DNA of 64,000 nt from contig JAIDTI010000004.1 of assembly GCA_029060755.1 (NCBI GenBank), forward strand, positions 1 through 64,000, written 5' to 3'. Within the stretch, counting starts at the first letter, position 1, and each line of letters begins with the position of its first letter. The DNA is from Ruminococcus sp. GTDB lineage: Bacteria > Bacillota > Clostridia > Oscillospirales > Ruminococcaceae. Both the position numbers and the translations under genes were made by a program. The notes under the pieces are model-generated. The model made no database searches. It saw nothing but the letters and a program-made list of their open reading frames with translations, and was not told the origin of the DNA. Shown one piece after another: positions 4,058 to 51,215 of the stretch.

Positions 4058-4495
4058 ATGGAAATATTGAACGAAATAAAATTTACAGTACCGTCTTTAT
4101 CGGTCAACGAAAGTACGGCAAGGGCGGTTGTATCGTCATTTATTGTACAGGCAGACCCGACAGTTGAGGAACTTTCAGATATACGAACAGCCGTTTCAGA
4201 GGCGGTCACGAATTGTATTGTACATGGCTACAGAAATTCGCAGGGGAATATTGAAATAGTTGTGCGGATTATGCCGAATCGTGAAATATACATAAAAATC
4301 AAAGACAACGGCTGCGGAATTGCAGATGTTCAGCAGGCTATGCAGCCACTTTTCACGACAGCTCCGGAGGAGGAGCGTTCGGGACTTGGCTTTTCCGTTA
4401 TGGAATCATTCATGGACAGGCTTACAGTAAAAAGCAGAGTAAACAAGGGTACAACAGTTACAATGCGAAAGAAGTTGAGCATACATGGCAGTTGA
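4058..4495 (+). CDS. spoIIAB: Anti-sigma F factor SpoIIAB
   Basis: GHKL ATPase/kinase signatures (AVSEAVTNCIVHGY, IKDNGCGIAD, RSGLGFSVMESFMD); operon context. Confidence 0.95.
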   Translation: MEILNEIKFTVPSLSVNESTARAVVSSFIVQADPTVEELSDIRTAVSEAVTNCIVHGYRNSQGNIEIVVRIMPNREIYIKIKDNGCGIADVQQAMQPLFTTAPEEERSGLGFSVMESFMDRLTVKSRVNKGTTVTMRKKLSIHGS

Positions 4496-5138
4496 AGTTA
4501 AACAGCCTCTGGCAGAGGAAAATCTCGGACTTGTACATCTGTGTGCAAACCGTTTCAGAGGTCGTGGAATTGAATATGAGGACTTATATTCCGCTGGTTG
4601 TCTCGGACTTCTTAAAGCTGTCAAGGCTTTTGATTCGAGCAGGGGAGTTAAGTTTTCCACTTATGCTGTACCTGTTATTCTGGGTGAAATAAAACGTCTG
4701 TTCCGTGACGGTGGAAGTGTTCATGTAAGCAGAAGTCTGAAAGATTTATCAATAAAACTGCAAAAAATCTGTTCGGACTTTGTACAGCATAATGGTAGAG
4801 AGCCTGCAATAAGTGAACTTGCGGAGATAACAGGGGAAACAGAATCGGATATATCAGAGGCTTTGTGTGCGTCACAGCCGTTGCTGTCGCTTACTGCGTC
4901 AGATGATGAAAGTCAACTTGATATACCTGTTGAGGCACCTGACGAAACAATAATTGACATACTTGCATTACGTCAGCTTATGCAGGAGTTATCAGATGAG
5001 GACAGAACATTGCTTGAACTGCGGTATTTCAAGAGTTTCACGCAGTCAAAAACAGCGCAGATACTTGGCATAACGCAAGTGCAGGTATCACGGCGGGAAA
5101 AGAAACTTCTTTTATATATGCGTGAACAGCTTTCATGA
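4485..5138 (+). CDS. sigF: RNA polymerase sporulation sigma factor SigF
   Basis: Sigma-70 regions 2-4 (EYEDLYSAGCLGLLKAVKAFD, GITQVQVSRREKKLL); third gene of the spoIIA operon. Confidence 0.95.
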   Translation: MAVEVKQPLAEENLGLVHLCANRFRGRGIEYEDLYSAGCLGLLKAVKAFDSSRGVKFSTYAVPVILGEIKRLFRDGGSVHVSRSLKDLSIKLQKICSDFVQHNGREPAISELAEITGETESDISEALCASQPLLSLTASDDESQLDIPVEAPDETIIDILALRQLMQELSDEDRTLLELRYFKSFTQSKTAQILGITQVQVSRREKKLLLYMREQLS

Positions 5139-16047: not shown

Positions 16048-16820
16048 ATGAAAATAAATGTTATGACATGGAATACTGGTTTATATCCAAATAAAACACG
16101 GTTTGATGAAATTATTGGATATATCAATAATTTTCTTTGGTTAAATAAAAATGAAAATGCTATTGCATTTATTCAGGAGATGCCATCTTCTGGAGAGTGG
16201 GAAAAAAAATTTAATCCAATACCGCCATTAGCTAACTTCTACCCATGTAATAAAAAAAATATGATGAATACAATACTTTTTTACAATATGAATGCAAAGA
16301 TAGTGCCTGATAGAACGTTTGAGAATACAGAAGACAATGAATACTTTACAGACAGAAACATTGCCGTTACATGTTATGACAAGAAGTTTCTTGCTGTTCA
16401 TATTCACACCCCAACAGAAAAAAATATATTGGTACATCCCTAGAAAAACAAGATATTAATATGACCGAACTGACAAATTGGTTGCCTAAAACTGTTGAAG
16501 AATTAGATATTGATGTTATTCTTGGTGATTTCAATGCAGGCGACTACACAAAACCTGATAGAAATTTCGCAGAAAGCAGGGAAACATTTAGGGTTATGGT
16601 AGACAAATTATCTCCCTATTATGTGAATATGTGCAATCTTCCTACACGTATTGACCCAAAAACTGCTACAAAATCCTGTATAGACCATGTATTTGTCAAA
16701 ACTGAACTTGCAACCTCTGTTTCTAACCTGATTGTGCATTATGAGGTCGAATACTCCGACCATTATCCGATTACTTTCAGTATTGAGATACCCGATAAAT
16801 CAGACAGCAACACTCTTTGA
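16048..16820 (+). pseudogene. Endonuclease/exonuclease/phosphatase family gene, frameshifted at an A7 tract
   Basis: N-terminal part 16048-16443 (MKINVMTWNTGLYP...IQEMPSSGEW...HIHTPTEKN) and C-terminal part in the -1 frame (IGTSLEKQDINMTELTNW...DVILGDFNAGD...SCIDHVFV...YSDHYPITFSIE) together form one EEP domain; junction at gAAAAAAAt 16417-16425. Confidence 0.8.
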
Positions 16821-19040
16821 AAAGCGGATTTTTCCGTCAGATGCTTCTATTTTGACAGTATCACCGCTATGAACACATGAATTTATAATCATCTTTGCAA
16901 GTTCGTTTTCGATTAATTCAGTTACACGCCTTTTAATAGGTCTTGCGCCGTATCGGTCAGTTTCCTTTGCTTGTGCGACAGTTTCTATGATGTCATTTCC
17001 ATAGACTAATTCAATACCAAGAGATTTTGCCCTTAACCGCAGATTTTCAAGTGCCTTTGCACTTATTTTCATAAGGTCACTTTTTTCAAGATTGTGAAAA
17101 ACAATGATTTCATCAATTCTTCCTGTAAATTCAGGTGTAAAGTGCATTTTTACTGCATCAAGCACCTGTTTTTCATCTGTACTTGCATTTTCGTTAAATC
17201 CAAGTGAGCTTTTACTGCCAGCACCGATATTTGAAGTCATTATTATAATGCAGTTGCGGAAGCTTATTTTCCTCATGCCTGAATCTGTCAGTATGCCATA
17301 ATCAAGAATCTGTAGCATTATATTAAGCACATCTGCATCAGCTTTTTCTATTTCATCAAAAAGTACAAGCGAATACGGGTTGCGTCTGATTTTTTCACAT
17401 AAACTGCTGTTTTTATCGTCATATCCGACATATCCCGGAGCAGTACCGATAATTTTCGCAACGGAGTTTTTCTCCATATATTCAGACATATCAACACGAA
17501 TGATATTTTTTTCAGAGCCGAACAGACATTCTGCCAAAGCTTTTGCAAGTTCAGTTTTGCCAACTCCTGAACTGCCGACAAATAAAAATGATGCGGACGG
17601 TTTGTCACTGTCTTTCAAGCCCGATTTTGCACGGCATACTGCATTTGTGACTTTTTTGACAGCATAGTCATGACCGATTATCCGTTCAGAAAGATTTTTT
17701 TCAAGAAAATTCAGCTGTATTGAATCCTCTGCCGATATTTTATTCATTGGTATTCCAGTTTTCATGGATACAACCGTCATTATATCCTCTGCGGTGACTT
17801 TTTTCAAGCCTGAACGGTGACGTATTTTTGCACAGGCGCAGGCTTCGTCAAGTACATCTATCGCTTTATCAGGCAGAAATCTGTCTGATATATAGCGTAC
17901 AGCCATATTTACAGACAAATCTATAATATTGTCAGGGATTTCAACATTATGATATTTTTCATATCTTGTTTTCAGTCCTTTGATGATTTCAGTACAGCTT
18001 TTGAAATCAGGCTCATTAATCTGAACAGGCTGAAAACGTCTTTCAAGTGCGGAATCCTTTTCAATAGTTTTGCTGTATTCGTCAAATGTTGTTGCACCTA
18101 TGATTTGCAGTTCACCTCTTGCAAGCATTGGTTTCATAATATTTGCGGCATCTATTGCACCCTCTGCTGCTCCCGCACCGACTATAGTATGAATTTCGTC
18201 AATGAACAGAATTATATTTCCGGCATTTATTGCTTCATCAATACAGGCTTTTACACGTTCCTCAAAATCACCCCTGTATTTTGCACCCGAAAGCAGTGCA
18301 GTGAAATCAAGTGAAAAGATAAACTTGTTTTTCAGCGAATCGGGAACAAGATTACGCACAAAAAGTTCTGCTACACCCTCAACAATAGCCGTTTTTCCAA
18401 CTCCTGCTTCACCTATAAGACAAGGGTTATTCTTGTTTCGTCTTGCAAGAATCTGCAAAACTCTTTCCACTTCTCTTATTCTGCCAATAAGAGGGTCATT
18501 TTTTTTGATAAGAGAAATATCTGTGATATTTTTTCCGTAGCGGAACAGATTAGGAAAATGTGAGATTTTCGGCTTGACTGCTTCATATAGTTCCTCACAG
18601 ACTGACGAAGATTCTGTCATTTCAAGTCCTGAACATATTCCCATTATATCTCCATCTGCTTTCTGTAGAATCGTATAGGCACTGCATGACATATTCTGAA
18701 TGATTGCTGTCAGAATATGTTCGGGAGAAGACAGCTTTTTTCCGTCTTTCTGTGCAATATTGCAGGCGTTTTCAAGAATCTTTTTTGCTGCATTTGTAAA
18801 GTAGCGGTAATTCAGCATAGACGGTTTGCCTACTCCGACAAGATTTACTATTTCTTTAAGCAAATCATCATAGGCAATGCCGTTTTCAATCAGAATTTCA
18901 GACGCATCTGAAGTTCCGTCGTTTGCAATTGAAAGAAGCAGATGTTCGCTTCCGACATAAGTGTGACCCATTTCAGATGCAAGATTAATAGCCCCCTCTA
19001 TTATCTCAACGGATTTTTTTGTGAATTTTTCTTTATTCAT
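16800..19040 (-). CDS. ClpC/ClpA-type AAA+ ATPase with Clp_N domain
   Basis: Two Walker A modules ([27 protein letters not shown]), N-terminal Clp repeats ([14 protein letters not shown]). Confidence 0.92.
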
Positions 19041-19130
19041 AATAGTTCCCTCCTGTTTTATTCTGCACTACTATATTATGCCACCTATTCTATGCGATAA
19101 CAGTCGAAAACAATAATTGCTGAAAAAAAT

Positions 19131-19159
19131 TTGTAACACTTTTTCTGCTATGGCATAAT
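19131..19159 (+). promoter_or_regulatory. Putative promoter of the small Cys-rich protein gene
   Basis: TTGTAA - 17 bp - CATAAT; followed by a 7-bp hairpin GAAACGC(19169-19175)/GCGTTTC(19184-19190). Confidence 0.5.
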
Positions 19160-19218
19160 ATGTAGTATGAAACGCAGACAAAAGCGTTTCAAATACATCT
19201 TAAAAGGAGATATTTATT

Positions 19219-19365
19219 ATGTGTAATTGTTTTGAGGGAAATAGCTGTATGTGGATTATTCTTCTTATCCTCATTTTCATCATTTTCTGCGGCTGTAACG
19301 GTCAGAACGACAACAACGGCTGCGGCTGTGGCTGCGGAAACAACAACGGCGGTTGTGGCTGCTGA
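19219..19365 (+). CDS. Small Cys/Gly/Asn-rich membrane protein, 48 aa
   Basis: MCNCFEGNSCMWIILLILIFIIFCGCNGQNDNNGCGCGCGNNNGGCGC, with aaaggaga RBS; below the ORF-track cutoff. Confidence 0.7.
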   Translation: MCNCFEGNSCMWIILLILIFIIFCGCNGQNDNNGCGCGCGNNNGGCGC

Positions 19366-19382
19366 TTATTGTTAAAAAGAAA

Positions 19383-19417
19383 AAGCTGTCGGACTTAAAA
19401 ATCCGACAGTTTTTTTG
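19383..19417. terminator. Intrinsic (probably bidirectional) terminator
   Basis: CTGTCGGA (19386-19393) / TCCGACAG (19402-19409) stem followed by T7. Confidence 0.85.
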
Positions 19418-20692
19418 TTATAAAATTTCTATTATATTATCGTCTTTATCAGTCAGTACAGCATCAGTATTATTTACAACACATTCTTTTGTAACATGAA
19501 CTTTTGCAATATTTTTATCAGAAGGCACAAGATACATAGGCTTCATGAATATTGATTCAAGAATAGAACGCAGTCCTCTTGCACCTGTTTTCTGTGAAAT
19601 AGCCTTTTTTGCGATTTCAATAAGTGCATCGTCATCAATTTCAAGCTCAATATCATCATATTCAAACAGTTTTTTGTATTGCTTGATAAGAGCATTTTTT
19701 GGCTTTGTGAGAATCTGTACAAGAGATTCTTCATTAAGTTCATCTAAAACGGAAATAACAGGAAGTCTGCCAATAAATTCAGGAACCATACCGAATTTAA
19801 CAAGGTCTTTCGGGACAACTTCTTTGAAAATATTGCGGTTTTCGTCATCAGCCGATTTGAGTTCACCACCGAAACCGATAGAAGATTTACTGTTTACACG
19901 CTTTTTTATCTGTGCTTCAAGTCCGTCAAAAGCACCACCGCATATAAAGAGGATATTTTTTGTATCAATCTGCAATGTTTCCTGATTAGGGTGTTTTCTG
20001 CCACCCTGCGGAGGAACATTTGAAACAGTACCCTCAATAATTTTAAGAAGTGCCTGCTGTACACCCTCACCGCTTACATCACGTGTGAGAGAAGTATTTT
20101 CTGATTTTCTTGCTATCTTGTCAATTTCATCAATGTAAATGATACCTTTTTCGGCTTCTTTTATGTCATAGTCAGCCGCCTGAATAAGACGTAGCAGAAC
20201 ATTTTCAACGTCATCACCAACATATCCTGCTTCTGTTATTGTAGTAGCATCAGCTATTGCAAAAGGAACATTGAGAATTTTTGCAAGAGTCTGTGCAAGA
20301 AATGTTTTTCCGACACCTGTAGGTCCTAAAAGTAAAACGTTACTTTTCTGAAGTTCAACGCCGTCGTCCGATTTTGTCTGATTATGACTCATTATACGTT
20401 TATAGTGATTATAAACGGCAACAGCAAGAGAGATTTTAGCTTCGTCCTGTCCGATTACATAATCATCAAGAAATTTCTTAATTTCAACAGGCTTAAGCAG
20501 ATTCATAGAATCCGGATTTTTGCTTTTTGGTGCTGACGCTTTTTTCTGTGCCTTTGTATATGCAGGACCGAAAAGCATTTCATAGCAGTATATTACACAT
20601 TCGTCGCATATATTTGCACTTCCTGCTGAAAACATACTGTTTGTATTGCTTTCGCTTTTGCCACAAAAATTACATGATTTAATTCCAGCCAT
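19418..20692 (-). CDS. clpX: ATP-dependent Clp protease ATP-binding subunit ClpX
   Basis: C4 zinc finger ([10 protein letters not shown]...ICDECV), [39 protein letters not shown]. Confidence 0.97.
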
Positions 20693-47142: not shown

Positions 47143-48048
47143 ATGCAGGAATGTACAAGCTATAGAGTTATTGCAGATTATCTGCCCGAAAAAATAAGAA
47201 ATGCAATGCTGAAAGTCAATCAGAATCAGCAGGAAAAAATCAGCGAAATCAGACTTTTCAGCGGACGAGCCATAGCGTATATTTATCCCGACAGAATTGC
47301 ATATCTTACAACAAACGGCTTGACCGCAAGTTTCAGAAATTCAGCAGTTATTTCTGCTGATTACAATGATATTTCAAGAACTGTTGATTCTTTGACACAT
47401 TATTCAATCCACAGCTGTACACGTGAACTGAAACAGGGATTTTTTGTTCTCAAAAACGGTGTAAGAGTGGGTGTTTCGGGGATTTATTCGTCAAATGGCA
47501 TCATTACAGAAATAACAGGGCTGAATTTTCGTATCGCAAGAAATGTTGTCGGAAGTGCGGAACGGATTTTTGACTTGATTTTTCCTGAAAATGCAGGGGT
47601 ACTTATATGTGGAAATGTAAATTCAGGAAAAACAACTGTTCTGCGTGATTTGTGCCGACTTATCGGAAATCATAAAAAAGTCACTCTTGTGGACGAACGG
47701 AACGAAATTTCATATTTTCATAATGGTGCAGTCTGCAATGATGTAGGAACACTGACAAATATTCTTGTCGGCTGTAAACGTGCTGACGGGATTATTTCGG
47801 CAGTTCGAACACTTTCACCCGATTATATTTTCTGTGACGAAATTTCAACTTATGAAGATGCAGAAGCTATAATGTGCGGTATAGGCTGTGGAGTACGGTT
47901 CTGTGCAACAGTCCACGCAGAAAGTTATGCTGATTTGTTGAAACGTCCTGTTGCAGAAAAAATTATGGGAGTATTCAGATATGCTGTTTTTCTGAAAGGT
48001 GCAGCAAATCCGGGGGAAATTGCTGAAATCAGGAGGATAGAAACATGA
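47143..48048 (+). CDS. spoIIIAA: Stage III sporulation protein AA
   Basis: ATPase with LICGNVNSGKTTVLRDLCRLI, VDERNEI; first of eight-gene operon. Confidence 0.95.
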   Translation: MQECTSYRVIADYLPEKIRNAMLKVNQNQQEKISEIRLFSGRAIAYIYPDRIAYLTTNGLTASFRNSAVISADYNDISRTVDSLTHYSIHSCTRELKQGFFVLKNGVRVGVSGIYSSNGIITEITGLNFRIARNVVGSAERIFDLIFPENAGVLICGNVNSGKTTVLRDLCRLIGNHKKVTLVDERNEISYFHNGAVCNDVGTLTNILVGCKRADGIISAVRTLSPDYIFCDEISTYEDAEAIMCGIGCGVRFCATVHAESYADLLKRPVAEKIMGVFRYAVFLKGAANPGEIAEIRRIET

Positions 48049-48551
48049 TTTTGAGAATGATTTCAGCACTTTCTTTTACTGCTATCGGCGGAATAGTTGG
48101 ATTTTCTATGTCGGACAAGCTGAAAGAATCGTGTATAATCTGTAATGAAATAAACTATCTTTTTCAGCAGACGGCTTTTCTGATTACATACAAGCAAGAT
48201 GATGTTTACACAATATGCCATACTCTTAAAAGAAATCCGGAACTGAAAAAACTTACATTTCTGAAAAATCTCCCCGACACCTATAAAACAGGCGAAAATT
48301 TTCGGGAAATATGGGCAGATGCAGTTGAATCACAAAAAAATATTTGCAGTGAGGAAAAATCATTACTTCTTCATTTTGGCTGTATATTAGGAAAAAGTGA
48401 TGCAGAGGGTCAGGCTGAATCCATTTCCGCTATGCAGAATGAACTGAATCACATAAGAGAAGCACACATGGAAAATCTGCTGAAAAAAGGTCGTTTATAT
48501 AGATGCGTGGGAGTTCTTTTCGGTGTTATGGCAGGAATATTAGTGCTTTAA
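48045..48551 (+). CDS. spoIIIAB: Stage III sporulation protein AB
   Basis: Position and LHFGCILGKSDAEGQ, GRLYRCVGVLFGVMAGILVL. Confidence 0.92.
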   Translation: MILRMISALSFTAIGGIVGFSMSDKLKESCIICNEINYLFQQTAFLITYKQDDVYTICHTLKRNPELKKLTFLKNLPDTYKTGENFREIWADAVESQKNICSEEKSLLLHFGCILGKSDAEGQAESISAMQNELNHIREAHMENLLKKGRLYRCVGVLFGVMAGILVL

Positions 48552-48564
48552 AGGAGTAAAAACA

Positions 48565-48762
48565 ATGGATATTGATTTGATTTTCAAAATTGCAGGAATC
48601 GGAATAATTGTTGCTGTACTTAATCTTGTATTGAAGCGTGCGGAGCGTGAGGAGCAAGCTATGATGACGACACTTGCGGGGTTGATAGTTGTTCTTGTGA
48701 TAATTGTCGAAGAAATAGGCGGACTTTTTGAAACAGTCAAAAGGGTGTTCGGCTTATGGTAG
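48565..48762 (+). CDS. spoIIIAC: Stage III sporulation protein AC
   Basis: 65-aa membrane protein MDIDLIFKIAGIGIIVAVLNLVLKRAEREEQAMMTTLAGLIVVL. Confidence 0.95.
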   Translation: MDIDLIFKIAGIGIIVAVLNLVLKRAEREEQAMMTTLAGLIVVLVIIVEEIGGLFETVKRVFGLW

Positions 48763-49145
48763 ACAGATGTATTTCAACAGCAGTTTTCTGTATATGTTCG
48801 GCAGTTTTAGCGGTGCTTCTCCGTCAGCATTGCCGTGAGCAGTCCATGATGATTGCGCTTGCTGTATGTACGGCTGTTATCGGCGGATTTTTGTCTGTTT
48901 TCAGTTCGGTAATAACAGAAGTGAGCAGTATTTTTTCGCAGGCAGGCATATCTGACAGTTACATTGCACTTATTTTCAAGGCAATGTCAATATGTCTTAT
49001 CACGCAGATAACTTGCGAAATCTGCCGTGACAGCGGAGAGTCTGCAATTGCATCAGCTGCGGAAATATGGGGACGTGGTGCGGTGACTGTTATAAGTCTG
49101 CCACTTGTAAAAGCACTTCTGGAGCAGATTAACGGAATTTTTTAG
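48756..49145 (+). CDS. spoIIIAD: Stage III sporulation protein AD
   Basis: ALIFKAMSICLITQITCEICRDSGESAIASAAEIWGR; operon position. Confidence 0.95.
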   Translation: MVDRCISTAVFCICSAVLAVLLRQHCREQSMMIALAVCTAVIGGFLSVFSSVITEVSSIFSQAGISDSYIALIFKAMSICLITQITCEICRDSGESAIASAAEIWGRGAVTVISLPLVKALLEQINGIF

Positions 49146-49155
49146 GGTGGATTGA

Positions 49156-50247
49156 ATGAAAAAAGCAGTCGTTATTTTTTTTGCAGTTGTTCTTGTTTTT
49201 CTTAATATACCGCTGTTTTCTGCTTATGCGGAAGATTATGCAGAGCCGTTTAGTGAGGTTGCAGAGGAGCTTGACAGTCTTTTTGATGAGTATGATTTAG
49301 GCTTCGGAATAGGCGATATATCAGGACTTTCATTCGGTGAACTTGCTGAACGTCTGAAAAATTCCATGTTGTCACATATAAATGCTCCGATAAAGATTCT
49401 TTGTGCAGTTTTTCTTGTTGTAGTTTTCAGTACTCTTATGAAATCGACAGCAAGCGGTGCGGTATCAAAAAATTCAGCTGATATTTATAATATGGTATGT
49501 GTTATGACTGCTGTTACTGTAATAATTCCGCAGCTTCTCACGGTTTACAGCGAAACACTGAATATTATTGAATTAAGCGGAAGATTCATTCTTGTTTTTG
49601 TACCGATTTTTACGGCAATTTCTGTTGCAAGCGGTGGATTTATTTCTGCCGGAGTTTATCATATAATGATGCTTGGTGCGTCGGAATTTATAGTCAGGCT
49701 GTCGGAGAGTTATCTTCTGCCGATTTTAAGCGTGACAGCGGCACTTGCTGTAACAGGAAGTGTTTTTCCGAACACTTCTCTTGACAGTCTTGTAAATCTT
49801 CTGAAAAAGGCTGTAACATGGGGAATTTCTGTTACAATGTCACTTTTTACAGGCTTTGTAACATTGAAATGCACAATAACTGGAAAAGCAGACGGAGTTA
49901 CAGCAAAGACTACAAAAATGCTTGTTTCGGGATTTGTGCCGATAGTTGGCGGAGCAGTTTCAGATGCCTATGCAACAGTAAAAGGAAGTCTGGAAGTTGT
50001 CAGCGGAACAGTCGGAGCAGCAGGAATAATTGCTGTAGCTATGCTAATACTCCCGAAAATTCTTGAACTGTTTGTATATCGTGCTGTTATGTGGACAGGC
50101 TCTGCTGTAGCTGATATTTTTTCTGCTGATTCAATTTCAAAACTGCTTAAAGGAATTGACAGCGGACTTGCTATAGCACAAAGTATTCTTGTATGTTATG
50201 GCGTTATGTTTATACTCTGTTCGGCAATTATTGTGAAAACTTTTTGA
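49156..50247 (+). CDS. spoIIIAE: Stage III sporulation protein AE
   Basis: Multi-pass protein with VPIFTAISVASGGFISAGVYHIMML, FVPIVGGAVSDAYATVKGSLEVV. Confidence 0.95.
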   Translation: MKKAVVIFFAVVLVFLNIPLFSAYAEDYAEPFSEVAEELDSLFDEYDLGFGIGDISGLSFGELAERLKNSMLSHINAPIKILCAVFLVVVFSTLMKSTASGAVSKNSADIYNMVCVMTAVTVIIPQLLTVYSETLNIIELSGRFILVFVPIFTAISVASGGFISAGVYHIMMLGASEFIVRLSESYLLPILSVTAALAVTGSVFPNTSLDSLVNLLKKAVTWGISVTMSLFTGFVTLKCTITGKADGVTAKTTKMLVSGFVPIVGGAVSDAYATVKGSLEVVSGTVGAAGIIAVAMLILPKILELFVYRAVMWTGSAVADIFSADSISKLLKGIDSGLAIAQSILVCYGVMFILCSAIIVKTF

Positions 50248-50257
50248 GGTGTCGCCT

Positions 50258-50719
50258 ATGGAAAATATCAAATCGGCTGTTATGGCAGTATGTATTGTAT
50301 CAGCAGTAAAGTGTATAATCGGGAATATAGCATCTGCATCTAAACTGAAAAATCAGCTTGAAATGATGATGAAGCTGTTGCTTGCCGTTGTTATGATTTC
50401 ACCTTTTGCAAGCGGTATTTCGTCATTTGAACTGCCTGATATTTCAGATTACAGCTTTTCCGCTTACGACTATTCAGACGACATTTATTCAGAAGCACTT
50501 ATAAAGCAGTCTGCTGAAAATATAGAATCGGTGCTTATAGGTCAGATTACAGCGTCGGGTATATCTTTTGAAAAAATTAAAGTTGAGGTTAATATTTCAG
50601 CAGATTACAGCATATTTATTAATAGGGTGACGGTCACATCAGAGGATTTTGAAGCTGTTGCAGAAATTGTGCGCAACAGTCTCGGAAACGAAACGGAGGT
50701 TGTAAATGAACTTGCTTGA
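50258..50719 (+). CDS. spoIIIAF: Stage III sporulation protein AF
   Basis: Operon position; two TM segments then soluble domain; start likely ATG 50258. Confidence 0.85.
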   Translation: MENIKSAVMAVCIVSAVKCIIGNIASASKLKNQLEMMMKLLLAVVMISPFASGISSFELPDISDYSFSAYDYSDDIYSEALIKQSAENIESVLIGQITASGISFEKIKVEVNISADYSIFINRVTVTSEDFEAVAEIVRNSLGNETEVVNELA

Positions 50720-51215
50720 AAAATTAAAGGAAAAGAAAGCAACTGTCGTTATGATTCTCGGTGTTGTCGGTTTGCTTCTCATTATGATTTCATCTGTTTT
50801 TGCGGACAAGGAGCAACCCGACCATTTGCCGTCCGACAAGTCTGTTTCAGAATCTGCTGATTATGATAATTATCGGCTTGAAACGGAGAAACGACTTGAG
50901 GAATTTCTTGAAAAAATTGAGGGTGCAGGTGATGTTGACGTTTTTCTTACTGTCGGGAGCAGTGAAAGATATGTTTATGCAGAAGAAGAAAAGAAAGTAA
51001 AATCAGATAACAAAACAGAGGAGGAAAATAAATATGTGATATATGGCAGTGAGAAAGAGCCTTTAGTTGAAACGGTCAGAACACCGCAAATAACAGGTGC
51101 GGTTATAGTATGTACGGGGGGAGACAGTCCCGCAGTTGAGGAACGTATTTATAAAGCCGTGTCATCTGCTCTTGGAATATCAACAGGAAAAATATATGTG
51201 ACTAAAATGAAATGA
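50706..51215 (+). CDS. spoIIIAG: Stage III sporulation protein AG
   Basis: TM then RLEEFLEKIEGAGDVDVFLTVGSS, ITGAVIVCTGGDSPAVEERIYKAVSSALGI. Confidence 0.93.
   Translation: MNLLEKLKEKKATVVMILGVVGLLLIMISSVFADKEQPDHLPSDKSVSESADYDNYRLETEKRLEEFLEKIEGAGDVDVFLTVGSSERYVYAEEEKKVKSDNKTEEENKYVIYGSEKEPLVETVRTPQITGAVIVCTGGDSPAVEERIYKAVSSALGISTGKIYVTKMK

Follow-up and report, generated by a model that had tools for sequence, protein, structure and literature searches.

The analysed stretch of Ruminococcus sp. DNA, 64,000 nucleotides long (the window), codes for a 48-amino-acid microprotein that is, with a probability of roughly 0.7, a tiny Cys-rich spore protein of Clostridia, transcribed by the sigma-K RNA polymerase, assembled in the spore envelope and linked through its Cys residues. 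The microprotein is a member of an undescribed, widespread family of spore-forming gut and environmental Clostridia. Its gene, family, conservation, promoter class and co-occurrence with sporulation were established computationally. Little is known of the spore layers of gut Clostridia, and gene callers easily overlook tiny proteins. The family provides a candidate for disulfide- or membrane-based assembly of these layers in a sizeable group of bacteria of the human gut. Together with its recognisable promoter, it also offers a way to mark the sigma-K regulon of spore-formers that are uncultured.

The microprotein and its family

The open reading frame, from the ATG at 19219 to the TGA at 19363-19365, is a real gene whose product is MCNCFEGNSCMWIILLILIFIIFCGCNGQNDNNGCGCGCGNNNGGCGC. 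The promoter-like bases, hairpin, ribosome-binding site, coding sequence and terminator described in an earlier note on this DNA are all found where it placed them (Table 1). Ten of the 48 residues are Cys (20.8%), one less than the 11 counted before, and CxC spacing occurs among them. This is the highest Cys fraction among the 325 ATG-started open reading frames of at least 30 amino acids in the window, the next one reaching 16.7%. The best 17-residue hydropathy stretch (3.06) corresponds to residues 10-26, where a single-sequence AlphaFold model of low confidence (mean pLDDT 52.7) also builds a helix. The short hydrophobic helix (CMWIILLILIFIIFC) follows an amino terminus that contains Cys. 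Of the single transmembrane segment proposed earlier, one hydrophobic helix is retained; with only about 13-17 hydrophobic residues, its insertion in the membrane is uncertain.

Table 1. Features of the microprotein locus and its neighbours in the window.
Feature	Position	Strand	Basis
Clp ATPase gene (Clp_N and two AAA domains), divergent neighbour	16800..19040	-	Pfam; NCBIfam ClpA model
-35 element GTAACAC; invariant AC at 19136-19137	19133..19139	+	conserved in genus
-10 element CATAATATG, 16 nt past AC; putative sigma-K type	19154..19162	+	comparison with relatives
5'-terminal mRNA stem-loop (TGAAACGC / GCGTTTCA)	19168..19191	+	fold energy, partial genus conservation
Ribosome-binding site AAGGAG	19204..19209	+	conserved in relatives
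Microprotein gene, 48 aa, Cys/Gly/Asn-rich, one hydrophobic helix (residues 10-26)	19219..19365 (including stop)	+	family, pN/pS
Bidirectional terminator, common to microprotein gene and clpX	19380..19415	.	fold energy; also minus-strand terminator call
clpX, convergent neighbour	19418..20692	-	TIGR00382, 610.7 bits (cut-off 370.75)

The host genome, a Ruminococcus metagenome-assembled genome (MAG), carries a single copy of the gene. A second Ruminococcus MAG encodes an identical peptide, its copy of the gene (L002/L003) differing at four nucleotides, all synonymous. Within the genus, 107 of 125 genomes gave a match with the threshold set at E <= 10; many of the matches span the full length and are much stronger than this limit requires. 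The genus consensus is MCNSCFEGNNCMWIILLILIFILLFSNCGCG..NDCGNNNGCGCGC, and an alignment of 16 members shows no variation at M1, C2, N3, F5, G7, N8, C10 or at several of the later Cys. The start codon and the Cys pattern, whose absence in relatives the earlier note would have counted against the gene, are kept across the genus together with the ribosome-binding site and the promoter. The microprotein is under purifying selection across the genus, with a mean pN/pS of about 0.22 (first 22 codons, 55 sequences).

Profile searches at E <= 0.01 detected the microprotein in 62 of 299 genomes at the level of the taxonomic family (strict profile), 158 of 346 in the order and 145 of 393 in the class. 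Queries of this kind are short and of low complexity, absence calls are unreliable, the weak class-level matches may include false ones and many of the genomes are MAGs. The proteins range from 28 to 61 amino acids and keep an N/G/C-rich amino terminus, a W, an I/L-rich helix and Cys residues. Most lineages have a flexible Gly/Asn tail with CGC repeats, whose length varies and whose Cys number and spacing change freely between close relatives; the helix region is strongly conserved. Several families code for forms of 28-33 residues that have the helix, end in CCCG or similar with a terminal CCC and are devoid of the CGC tail (L090-L095, L099-L103, L115, L119, L135). In some genomes the gene is present as two or three copies in tandem.

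When the window protein and seven relatives were compared with Pfam and NCBIfam profiles up to E <= 10, only chance-level hits such as SNARE and TatA came up, and no description of the family was found in the open-access literature. A peptide-pattern search of one genome per GTDB species returned a single near-identical copy, so that profile searches of whole genomes were needed. A YjcZ-like consensus query had no match in plasmids, probably due to low-complexity filtering.

The hairpin at the start of the transcript has a fold energy of -10.6 kcal/mol (z -5.45 relative to shuffled sequences) and is partly conserved in the genus. Its pair 4 is frequently mismatched, which gives only partial support to a conserved RNA element, and an Rfam search of the whole window gave no match. 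The transcript start TATGAARCG...CGYTTCAAATAC (window 19168-19191, plus strand) is kept across the genus beyond what the promoter needs. A leader peptide in the 5' untranslated region (MKRRQKRFKYI...) was discarded, its frame being broken in several relatives. The terminator hairpin, followed by T residues, is strong as had been noted before (-17.8 kcal/mol, z -6.1 relative to shuffles) and is shared with the oppositely transcribed clpX.

Promoter class and link to sporulation

The promoter bases had been read earlier as TTGTAA (19131-19136) and CATAAT (19154-19159) with a 17-nt spacer. These bases are present, but matches of the sigma-70 type occur in the region at chance level (6 found, 5.2 expected). 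They fit a sigma-K promoter much better, the window copy reading AC-N16-CATAATATG. In C. difficile the -35 element is AC for sigma-K and ATA for sigma-E while their -10 elements are similar (PMC3789822), and B. subtilis sigma-K promoters have a spacing of about 15 +/- 1 between longer elements (PMC517825). The microprotein promoter combines AC at -35 and CATAnnnT at -10 with the spacing of sigma-K regulon promoters and is distinct from the ATA form. The upstream block GTAACAC-N13/14-GCATAnTATG hardly varies within the genus, and the window site is the only exact match to the promoter pattern in its genome. Across families the -35 region reads T-G-T-(A/C)-A-C-(A/C).

The upstream regions of 126 loci, dereplicated to 67 by keeping one for the genus and removing similar ones, show the same motif. 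AC-N15-17-CATA is found in 49 of the 67 (5.2 expected), CATAnnAT in 42 (3.0 expected) and their combination AC-N15-17-CATAnnAT in 38 (0.5 expected); the sigma-E form ATA-N16-CATA occurs in 0 of the 67. When all dinucleotides and spacings preceding CATA were scanned in these regions, AC-N16-CATA ranked first. On the reverse strand AC-N15-17-CATA was found 5 times against 49 on the forward strand, and the longer -10 form once against 38.

Controls for sigma-E within the same genus were taken from spoIIIAA and sigK, spoIVA being unusable as it closely follows another gene in an apparent operon. The spoIIIAA promoters are of the ATA type by eye inspection, and a simple ATA pattern is found near the start of sigK in 9 of 19 loci; the AC-CATA pattern occurs at sigK in one of the 19, that of the window's own genome. 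The comparisons across many families strongly support the assignment of the predicted microprotein promoter to the sigma-K, late mother-cell type, and we infer from this class that the gene would be expressed late in sporulation in dependence on sigma-K.

The genus has the two mother-cell sigma genes, distinguished by the recognition helices ISRSYVSR (sigma-K) and GISQSYISR (sigma-E). The copy of sigma-K in the window's own genome scores 288.7 bits, just below the cut-off of 298.65, and has the Arg in its recognition helix (ISRSYVSR); other genus members likewise encode sigma-K. The two factors differ in the residue that determines -35 specificity, Arg for sigma-K and Gln for sigma-E (PMC517825), and we read the R/Q difference between the genus helices as this position. 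In two genomes sigK is split in two parts, as with a skin element: about 8.4 kb separate them in G041 (contig C13, 257478-266628) and about 5.5 kb in G044 (contig C60, 23063-29257). yabG was found in 0 of 40 genus genomes examined, though SpoIVA is present in 122 of 125, and YabG was dropped as a sigma-K control.

At the level of the class, SpoIVA is encoded by 140 of the 145 genomes that have the microprotein versus 148 of the 248 that do not (table 140/5/148/100; p = 2.5e-18), a p value that overstates independence as the genomes are related, while the direction is clear. Restricting the analysis to strong matches (E <= 1e-5), SpoIVA is found in 50 of 51 genomes, again related ones (p = 1.7e-6). 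The five genomes with a microprotein match and no SpoIVA are incomplete MAGs or false matches. The 148 SpoIVA-positive genomes without a detected copy imply that the microprotein is not universal or that its short low-complexity profile misses many.

The window itself also carries spoIIIAA, spoIIIAB, spoIIIAE and spoIIIAG (47143-51215, plus strand) and a SigF-like sigma factor of 217 amino acids (4485-5138, plus strand), all below the NCBIfam cut-offs.

A putative role in the spore envelope

The preferred reading is that the microprotein gene is transcribed by sigma-K RNA polymerase in the mother cell, late, after engulfment, from its own promoter to its own terminator. Localisation and cross-linking would then be as follows. 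With its short helix as anchor, the protein may insert into a membrane or a hydrophobic layer of the coat around the forespore, or assemble on it, and the amino terminal and tail Cys would form disulfides or bind metal and hold it in place. Such Cys links could help to knit the spore layers and give added cohesion to the coat or exosporium. The microprotein might work like B. subtilis YjcZ supplemented with Cys-rich cross-linking ends. A spore or envelope component comparable to YjcZ was one of three roles put forward in the earlier note and is the best supported of them, considering the sigma-K-type promoter, the co-occurrence with SpoIVA and the presence of both sigma-E and sigma-K in the genus.

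Like the tiny transmembrane sporulation proteins, the microprotein is of very small size with one hydrophobic helix. Bacillus YjcZ, presumably alike in sequence, shares the small size, the Gly/Asn-rich amino terminus and one short Ile/Leu/Val helix. The microprotein differs from it by the conserved Cys that flank the helix, before and after it, the CGC tail and its presence in Clostridia, and it does not match the curated Pfam and NCBIfam profiles of YjcZ or of the tiny transmembrane sporulation proteins. The gene yjcZ, coding for a tiny membrane protein, belongs to the B. subtilis sigma-K regulon (PMC517825). CdeC and CdeM of C. difficile are Cys-rich, sigma-K-regulated exosporium proteins thought to be cross-linked by disulfides (PMC9542656). 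The microprotein resembles them in Cys content and in its putative promoter class but is set apart by its size, about 5 kDa compared to 44.7 kDa for CdeC and 19.1 kDa for CdeM, and by the absence of a family match. Lacking a profile match, and given the size difference to CdeC and CdeM, it is not filed under YjcZ or CdeC/CdeM. The B. subtilis spore-assembly proteins SpoVM and CmpA, only some tens of residues long, are mother-cell products that function at an early stage, under sigma-E, and are not rich in Cys; CmpA is a ClpXP adaptor for SpoIVA. The microprotein is similar to them in its tiny size, while it is Cys-rich, has a promoter of apparent sigma-K type and gives no family match.

Promoter class and co-occurrence tell when the gene would act and not what it does, and they agree also with a real sporulation gene whose function lies outside envelope structure, such as in germination, assembly of the cortex or lysis of the mother cell. 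This is possible though unlikely, since late mother-cell genes often code for coat or exosporium proteins, which the microprotein resembles in composition, by analogy only.

The Cys content with CxC spacing would also suit a metallothionein-like metal-binding or redox peptide of the mother cell or spore, whose CGC motifs chelate Zn, Cu or Fe. Such a function is doubtful: a chelating site is expected to be kept, but close relatives differ freely in how many tail Cys they have and how these are spaced, and in some families the tail is missing altogether. It is retained because the sequence does not separate disulfide from metal roles of the Cys. The variable tail Cys beside a conserved helix region agree less well with a defined metal site than with loose cross-linking. 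The short forms without the Cys tail mean, for the envelope role favoured here, that tail cross-linking is not the whole function.

The clp neighbourhood

The divergent neighbour had been described as ClpC-like. It has the Clp_N and two AAA domains, its length is ClpA-like and the ClpA model matches it from end to end (residues 9-732 of 746; profile positions 4-733 of 734). The layout proposed earlier, with a divergent Clp ATPase gene and a convergent clpX, is common in the genus. The Clp ATPase gene lies within 0.5 kb in 68 of the 71 genus loci read, and convergence with clpX, found in 51 of the 71, is looser than this adjacency. Many of the loci read in the wider family likewise have the Clp ATPase gene on the divergent side. 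In some genera of the same taxonomic family (L039, L053, L055), as well as in a different family of the same order (L065, L072, L080, L082, L108, L118) the divergent genes are ctsR, mcsA and mcsB, whole or in part, where CtsR and McsB were identified by Pfam and McsA by its UVR motif and neighbours. In still other families the gene adjoins those of 5-formyltetrahydrofolate cyclo-ligase, DJ-1, TypA or others, so that linkage to Clp is common and not required.

McsA shares with the microprotein a high Cys content and the same gene neighbourhood, and is a partner of the CtsR/ClpC system. It is, however, a soluble zinc-finger protein of about 160-200 amino acids with a UVR motif, encoded separately in the ctsR operons that adjoin the microprotein gene. 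Beside the Clp ATPase gene of the genus relatives ctsR-mcsA-mcsB are absent within the stretches read. In a simple reading the microprotein gene would have sat beside a ctsR-mcsA-mcsB-clpC operon, of which the Ruminococcus line later lost ctsR-mcsA-mcsB.

The genus layout, and the ctsR-mcsA-mcsB genes found next to the microprotein gene in several further genera and in a different family of the order, are what speaks for a small regulator of the neighbouring Clp ATPases. It could act as an adaptor or sensor tethered to the membrane, with Cys that report the redox state. This role, also suggested earlier, is improbable: only the neighbourhood favours it, gene order can persist without function, the family persists away from clp genes, and the microprotein promoter is apparently of the sigma-K type while the conserved block that precedes clpC is different. 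Somewhat more remote is the idea that the microprotein, specific to sporulation and anchored in the membrane, serves as an adaptor or redox sensor and brings the neighbouring Clp ATPase to the surface of the forespore, where the Cys-rich coat would undergo quality control; if true, this would explain why the gene stays beside clpC or the ctsR operon while it is expressed by sigma-K. A secreted or membrane-active peptide, be it a type I toxin or a bacteriocin/RiPP precursor, would suit a short hydrophobic product with a structured 5' untranslated region but is most improbable given the single copy in the host genome, the fixed place in the genus, the lack of adjacent modification or export genes, the sporulation-type promoter and the purifying selection across the genus.

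A genus-wide conserved block precedes the Clp ATPase gene (window 19075-19109, minus strand), TTTCGACTGTTATCGCA...GTGGCATAATA. The block contains the imperfect dyad CGACTGTTATCG, seems unlike a CtsR box and may be a binding site for a regulator.
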